A stretch of 34,116 bases of DNA from Geminicoccaceae bacterium (GTDB taxonomy: Bacteria > Pseudomonadota > Alphaproteobacteria > Geminicoccales > Geminicoccaceae), in NCBI GenBank assembly GCA_020445645.1, contig JAGRGG010000013.1, positions 15,088-49,203 of the forward strand. The letters are read 5' to 3'. Both the position numbers and the translations under genes were made by a program. The notes under the pieces are model-generated. The model did not search any database. It saw nothing but the letters and a program-made list of their open reading frames with translations, and was not told the origin of the DNA. Positions 24,581-26,497 of this stretch are shown piece by piece; the stretch's first letter is position 1; each line of letters begins with the position of its first letter.

Positions 24581-24997
24581 TCACCTTGCTGTGAAGGGGT
24601 TGAACACTATCGCGCCCGAGTCCCGCATATCCGCCTCGTTGCGCGTGACAAGGGTGAGACCGTGGACGTAGGCGGTGGCGGCGAGCAGGGCATCGATGAC
24701 GGGAACGGAGCGGGCGGCGCTCGACTGTCCCCTGCGAGCGGCGACTGGCGCGTCGACGGGGAGAACGCGCGGGCCGAACCCGGTTACGATCTGCATCAGC
24801 CAACGATCGAGGGCGGCGGCCCTGGCGGGATCGCGCGGCCGGACGCGCTCGACGCCCTTACAGATCTCGCCGAGGACAAGAACGCTCAGGTAGATGTCGG
24901 CGGCGTCGGTCGCGGCGTACCATGCGGCGACGCCCGGATCGCAACGGGAACCCTTGCGGACTTCGGAAATGACGTTGGTGTCGATCAGGAAGCCCAA
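24581..24997 (-). CDS. vapC: PIN-domain toxin VapC
   Basis: The 138-residue protein is a PIN-domain ribonuclease. The acidic metal site is visible: D6 in LIDTNVISE, E44 in LVLGEICKG, D102 in VIDALLAATA, and D123 in TRNEADM. Length and the closing FNPF are typical of VapC. Such toxins cut tRNA or rRNA; the target is unknown here. The ATG at 24997 lies within the end of the antitoxin gene (13-base overlap), as in most vapBC operons. Base composition is that of the host. Confidence 0.92.
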   Translation of the reverse strand: MGFLIDTNVISEVRKGSRCDPGVAAWYAATDAADIYLSVLVLGEICKGVERVRPRDPARAAALDRWLMQIVTGFGPRVLPVDAPVAARRGQSSAARSVPVIDALLAATAYVHGLTLVTRNEADMRDSGAIVFNPFTAR

Positions 24998-25278
24998 AGA
25001 TCGACGTCGTGGCCGGTGTCGCGGTCCCGCTCCAAGGGCACGCCTTCGAGCGGCGCGGAAGCGAGGAGAACCTTGAGGTCCGGCGCTTCGCCAGGCTCGA
25101 CGAGCGTTCGCAGCGTCGCGCGGGTCTTCGCGGCGCGGGCTGGATCGGCGAGCGCGAGCGCCATGCTACGGACGAGCGCCACGTCCTCCTGAGACACGCG
25201 GACTTCGAGGCGGACGACGCCCGCCACGCTCTGCCGGCGCCGATGCTCGGCTAGGCGCTTGCGTGTGGTGCTAGGCAA
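24985..25278 (-). CDS. vapB: Antitoxin of the vapBC pair
   Basis: The 97-residue protein is upstream of and overlaps vapC, the usual antitoxin place. Residues 19-35 (GVVRLEVRVSQEDVALV) look like a ribbon-helix-helix strand plus helix, which would bind the operator. The acidic C-terminus (LEGVPLERDRDTGHDVDLWA) is suited to block the PIN active site. The start is a TTG at 25278 with only a weak AAAGAG site upstream, so a different start is possible. An AT-rich near-palindrome (about 25318-25335, TATCCGGAAACGGTA) upstream may be the operator. Just beyond it the base composition changes to AT-rich. Confidence 0.75.
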   Translation of the reverse strand: MPSTTRKRLAEHRRRQSVAGVVRLEVRVSQEDVALVRSMALALADPARAAKTRATLRTLVEPGEAPDLKVLLASAPLEGVPLERDRDTGHDVDLWAS

Positions 25279-25500: not shown

Positions 25501-25614
25501 GCCGACGCGGTCACGTTCGAGCCGCAGGCGGCCCAGGTCAATATGCTCGTGCCCAAGCAGCTTCTGGATGCACTCAAAGCGCGGGCACGCGATTGTAAGA
25601 TACTTTATGCATAG
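25501..25614 (+). pseudogene. Fragment resembling a CopG/BrnA-type antitoxin
   Basis: The frame 25501-25614 encodes VTFEPQAAQVNMLVPKQLLD followed by ALKARARDCKILYA. This resembles the ribbon-helix-helix core of short antitoxins (pattern N-x-x-V-P-x-x-L-L-D-A-L-K-A-R-A). A TAA immediately upstream (25498-25500) and stops right after leave no start or complete end. It is GC-rich inside an AT-rich region, so it may be a host remnant cut by the insertion. Confidence 0.35.
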
Positions 25615-25642
25615 TTTCTTTAGAAGTGAATAGAGCAAAAGA

Positions 25643-25739
25643 TTTGGCGTTTATCCCCCTGACGCAGGGCAGGCAAAATTGCCAAAGATTTTTCAATTGG
25701 TTAGATTGCCTGCCCTGCGTCAGGGGGATAAACGCCAAA
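25643..25739. repeat. Perfect 34-bp inverted repeat with nested palindromes
   Basis: Arms at 25643-25676 and 25706-25739 are exact reverse complements, separated by 29 bases. Each arm contains its own palindrome CCCTGACGCAGGG. The spacer begins with GCCAAAGATTTTTCAATTGG (25681-25700, starting four bases in). A near copy, GCCAAAGATTTCAAAATTGG (25734-25753), begins in the end of the right arm. The transcript or single strand could fold into a large branched hairpin. It may be a MITE-like element, a bidirectional terminator or a protein-binding site. Confidence 0.9.
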
Positions 25740-25816
25740 GATTTCAAAATTGGCAGGCTAAAAATTTAGCGCATATGTTGAATTATTACATAAACTAAAA
25801 ACAGTTATAGGAAAAA

Positions 25817-26497
25817 TCATATAGCAGTCAATCTTTCAGGAAAGTGTTCCCAAAACGTTTTCAGAGTTTCAGCGAACTGGTCAAAATGTTCTTCGGCAAA
25901 TTGTGGATCGTCATATTCTAGCCTTACAAATGAACTTGCTTCAGCTCCCAAATTGTTGAAAATTTCAGGCCATTCGGCTGCCAAACGGGTACGGGATGGG
26001 CCATACCCATGCTTTACGGTATTCGCAATCAGGTGAAGACGGTTGAGGTCCTGCCAGAAAGCCTGTTGCGTCAAATCAAAATCAAAAGTTTTGAGACAAC
26101 TAACAATGTCAGAAAAATTCCATTTTCCTATGTCTTTTTTTGCTTGAAAGCCATGCCGCCGCAACTCGTCTCCGATAAAGCGCTTGATCATTCGTTCCCA
26201 AAGATGGAATAGACCTGCCAGACCCAAAGCTATAGTTTGCCGCTTGATAAAATCAAGCTCTTCATAAACTCTTAATCCATGCATATAAGCCTCTTCAGCG
26301 TATTGGTAAGCATCGTCAGGATCCATCATACCGCGTGCTAAATCAGCAAATTCATTAACCGCATTATTGGCTTCTAAATTGATATCAGCAAATGTGGGCA
26401 GTAATCTTGTACGAAACCCTTTGGCATAAGCAGCATTCAAACGCAGTGCATACTCTCTTGCAAATTCGTAAAAATGCAGTTCTGGTCCTCTAATCAT
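25817..26497 (-). CDS. AT-rich gene of unknown function, overlapping hicB
   Basis: A 226-residue soluble, mainly helical protein. It is AT-rich, unlike its neighbours, and so probably acquired by transfer. I do not recognise a named family. The stretch LNRLHLIANTVKHGYGPS (about 152-169), with a basic residue and N-x-x-x-H spacing, recalls the active-site region of HEPN-type ribonucleases and related stress or defence proteins. This is only a motif-level resemblance. The aromatic start HFYEFAREYALRLNAAY and DPDDAYQYAEEAYMHGLRVY are other clear helices. Its ATG (26497) overlaps the hicB stop (ATGA), so it may be translated from the hicAB transcript. The first 30 bases include no strong ribosome site, which supports coupling. 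Confidence 0.75.
   Translation of the reverse strand: MIRGPELHFYEFAREYALRLNAAYAKGFRTRLLPTFADINLEANNAVNEFADLARGMMDPDDAYQYAEEAYMHGLRVYEELDFIKRQTIALGLAGLFHLWERMIKRFIGDELRRHGFQAKKDIGKWNFSDIVSCLKTFDFDLTQQAFWQDLNRLHLIANTVKHGYGPSRTRLAAEWPEIFNNLGAEASSFVRLEYDDPQFAEEHFDQFAETLKTFWEHFPERLTAI

Follow-up and report, generated by a model that had tools for sequence, protein, structure and literature searches.

A 91-bp palindrome in a Geminicoccaceae genome is very probably a MITE of the IS1595 type

The window, i.e., the whole stretch of 34,116 nucleotides that was analysed, belongs to contig C130 of the draft genome of a Geminicoccaceae bacterium (3.78 Mb in 291 contigs; genome G000). It contains an A/T-rich intergenic stretch in which a long palindrome is located. 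On one side lies a PIN-domain (VapC-like) toxin gene that, together with its upstream partner ORF, occupies positions 24581-25278, and on the other a 226-aa orphan ORF (the island gene; 25817-26497, minus strand), followed by a HicB-like antitoxin gene. This 226-aa ORF, for which no Pfam, NCBIfam or PADLOC match was obtained, is A/T-rich and sits between the VapC-like and the HicB-like genes in a genome that is GC-rich; it was probably acquired horizontally. No functional tie of the palindromic element to its neighbouring genes is evident.

The palindrome has two 34-bp arms (25643-25676 and 25706-25739), each being the exact reverse complement of the other, with a spacer of 29 bases between them, as stated in the preliminary description, and the CCCTG-ACG-CAGGG motif described inside them is found at 25657-25669 and, as its reverse complement, at 25713-25725. 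The palindrome, which spans positions 25643-25739, is far beyond chance expectation and twice as long as the second-best perfect inverted repeat of the whole window (17 bp, with arms lying within 250 bp of each other). The RNA fold predicted for positions 25600-25800 has an energy of -91.8 kcal/mol (z of -12.4 with respect to shuffled sequences).

Comparison with other copies shifted the boundaries of the element to 25646-25736, so that it starts with GGCG and ends with CGCC. It consists of a left TIR of 31 bp (25646-25676, plus strand), whose outer 20 bp are conserved (GGCGTTTATCCCCCTGACGC), a central A/T-rich spacer (25677-25705) that is conserved in four copies and diverged in the copy of contig C26, and a right TIR, also of 31 bp (25706-25736, minus strand), that is the exact complement of the left one. 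This 91-bp unit has no coding capacity, its boundaries are common to the dispersed copies and it is 99% identical to the copies of contigs C136 and C275; being short, non-coding and bordered by 31-bp TIRs, it shows the features that characterize a MITE. The element is flanked by an 8-bp target-site duplication, AAAGATTT, at 25638-25645 and 25737-25744. The duplicated target includes the outermost three bases of either 34-bp arm (TTT and AAA), which pair fortuitously. The span initially assigned to the palindrome (25643-25757) exceeds the duplication on its right edge by about 13 bases of host flank. Two near-copies of GCCAAAGATTT-N3-AATTGG had also been reported and both exist (25681-25700 and 25734-25753, 17 of 20 positions being identical), but they are not a single unit: the second is composed of the terminal GCC of the element, the target duplication AAAGATTT and host flank. 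This 8-mer appears in three roles, namely as target duplication in the window, inside the spacer, and immediately to the right of the C136 copy; the simplest view is that the latter two are due to chance in A/T-rich DNA.

The search for further copies and flanking duplications, proposed when the palindrome was first noticed, revealed seven more copies in the genome. Thus, there are at least eight, all on different contigs: five full copies, including that of the window and four closely related to it (C136:54087, C275:2472, C276:6509 and C26:5573), and three divergent ones (C129:9172, C180:15940 and C271:2083). Copy lengths range from 84 to 93 bp, all of them measuring 91-93 bp except the C129 copy, whose loop is a run of N. 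Perfect 8-bp duplications flank four of the eight copies, those of C130, C275, C276 and C26 (AAAGATTT in the window and, in the other three, the sequences AAAGAAAA, TTTTCTTT and TAAAAATT), a clean duplication being missing in C136, C129, C180 and C271. Since matching 8-mers flank a 91-bp interval at 19 of 34001 positions of the window, the probability of finding at least four perfect duplications among eight copies by chance is about 7e-12. The C136 copy, situated about 60 bp from a contig end, has unmatched flanks, TTTTCTTT and AAAGATTT, which could result either from recombination between copies or from a chimeric join.

The arms of the C136, C275, C276, C26 and C180 copies carry mismatches, and a matched change on both sides was found in C129 alone (CACGG/CCGTG), pointing to a possible homogenisation of the arms. 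It had been argued that perfect arms of this length are rarely kept without function or recent origin. The mismatched arms of most other copies favour the second term of this alternative, recent origin of the window copy, and selection on the stem is not evident.

The ends of the element relate it to the IS1595 family. For instance, a relic in the same genome (C36:6629) carries the TIR GGYGTYTATCCCCYTGACG with one mismatch, directly followed by a transposase fragment that matches the NCBIfam IS1595 model NF033547 with an E value of 2.9e-9 and a score of 37 bits, below the cut-off of 75; the fragment has no Pfam match. A complete element of 2240 bp is present in Thiotrichaceae bacterium NORP24, with the TIR GGTGTTTATCCCCTTGACG at both ends, the duplication AATATTTA and an intact transposase containing the Zn_ribbon_IS1595 and DDE_Tnp_IS1595 domains. 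When 385 genomes of the class were searched for the TIR pattern, allowing one mismatch, four places were found in three other genomes, and all four adjoin an IS1595 transposase. Three of these places hold complete elements (2434, 2434 and 2048 bp), whose duplications match at 8 of 8 positions (TCGAGAAA, TAGAGTTA and AAATTGAT), and the same two domains were detected in them by a domain scan that covered just one of the two 2434-bp elements. In all, four complete IS1595 elements of other genomes have ends nearly identical to those of the palindrome, together with 8-bp duplications and a transposase of this family. These complete elements (2.0-2.4 kb) also show long ORFs beside the transposase, possibly passenger genes.

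Members of IS1595 generate 8-bp duplications and the related Merlin elements have a conserved terminal GG (PMC8101967), while the 8-bp duplications of ISApl4 are A/T-rich (PMC12561309). The terminal GG and the 8-bp, preferably A/T-rich duplication of the present element fit these published features. Like the insertion sequences of NORP24, G406 and G151, the element has the outer TIR GGNGTTTATCCCCTTGACG and duplicates 8 bp of its target. However, those insertion sequences are 2.0-2.4 kb long and carry a transposase and further ORFs, whereas the element studied here is a gene-less unit of 91 bp with a longer inner palindrome (CAGGGCAGGCA), the TIR homology being confined to about the outer 20 bp. 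With a TIR common to autonomous IS1595 elements and an 8-bp target duplication, the palindrome is thus very probably a 91-bp MITE, i.e., an IS1595-type transposon that is not autonomous, and the suggestion of a MITE-like element made in the preliminary description is borne out by its dispersed copies, target-site duplications and TIRs.

Judging from the shared ends, the MITE is most likely mobilised in trans by an IS1595 transposase. A full-length helper element with the same ends would supply this protein, which would bind the GGCGTTTATCCCCYTGACG terminal repeats and excise or copy the MITE; its insertion into an A/T-rich 8-bp target would then duplicate the target. None of the 291 contigs of the assembly contains an intact autonomous element bearing this TIR, and a TIR search around about eight other IS1595 transposase loci of the genome yielded no matching ends. 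TIR-like matches upstream of two of these transposases look, by eye, like a ribosome-binding site plus start codon. Contigs C55 and C268 end exactly at the TIR sequence GGCGTCTATCCCCTTGACGT, as expected if a repeat broke the assembly, which suggests an unassembled repeated element with these ends; this element may be the autonomous helper.

With respect to other sequences, the palindrome has no match in Rfam and no similar DNA was found in plasmid sequences; phage sequences yielded just a weak 28-base match to the flank, and the TIR is absent from viral contigs and from 30 other genomes of the family. No copy was detected in 60 relatives, the sole match being a weak one of 29 bases in G032. 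A wider scan of genome contigs gave 32 matches to the TIR pattern, the Thiotrichaceae element being the only confirmed IS1595 element; many of these matches share a recurring GGTGTTTATCCCCYTGACGGTNGG context and look like conserved-gene matches.

The element resembles other bacterial MITEs, such as MITEAba12, in being short and non-coding and in having TIRs, target duplications and dispersed copies (reviewed in PMC10969869), but those have other TIRs and a different parent family. Compared with bacterial MITEs in general, it is unusually short, consists mostly of stem and has only about eight copies. The copies together form a real family of short MITEs that is newly recognised and of an ordinary kind. 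A formerly unexplained perfect palindrome is thereby classified as a mobile element with defined ends, and its TIR signature can be used for annotating this IS1595 group and its MITEs.

Other interpretations have also been considered. One is that the palindrome serves the island gene as a structured RNA or as a dedicated terminator working in both directions: a very stable hairpin lies immediately 3′ of that gene, and MITE hairpins are thought to be capable of acting as terminators (PMC10969869). However, the full hairpin is not directly followed by a T-tract, Rfam gave no hit and the copies lie in unrelated places. In addition, the arms are mismatched in five copies, which gives no evident sign of selection on the stem. 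This explanation is very unlikely and a terminator is not supported as origin or purpose of the palindrome, as is also the case for the recombination or replication signal initially contemplated; the MITE may act as an incidental, putative block to read-through. Still less probable is a REP/REPIN-type element mobilised by a tyrosine transposase of the Y1 type (RAYT): the palindrome is intergenic and multi-copy and the genome contains two Y1_Tnp genes, but these are on other contigs, the copy number is low, and neither the IS1595 ends nor the perfect 8-bp duplications of four copies agree with it. REPs are not known to have target duplications or DDE-type TIRs. Finally, a false palindrome created by the assembly is hardly credible at this locus in spite of the draft state of the genome and the possibly chimeric C136 copy, since independent copies with different flanks and duplications of their own exist elsewhere.

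As for the insertion sites of the MITE, one flank of five of the eight copies (C136, C275, C276, C129 and C180) folds at -10 kcal/mol or lower beside a T-rich tract. In 114 kb of this genome, the corresponding share is 12% for A/T-rich 8-mers and 18% for poly-A/T ones. This excess has a P of 0.001-0.006, for a small sample of eight copies and a threshold set after seeing them; among the four copies with perfect duplications, two have such a flank. The placement of copies beside T-tracts of terminator-like hairpins is suggestive only and constitutes a lead; a preference of this IS1595-type MITE for the T-tracts of intrinsic terminators as targets is rather doubtful, but, if true, it would allow the MITE to spread without breaking genes.
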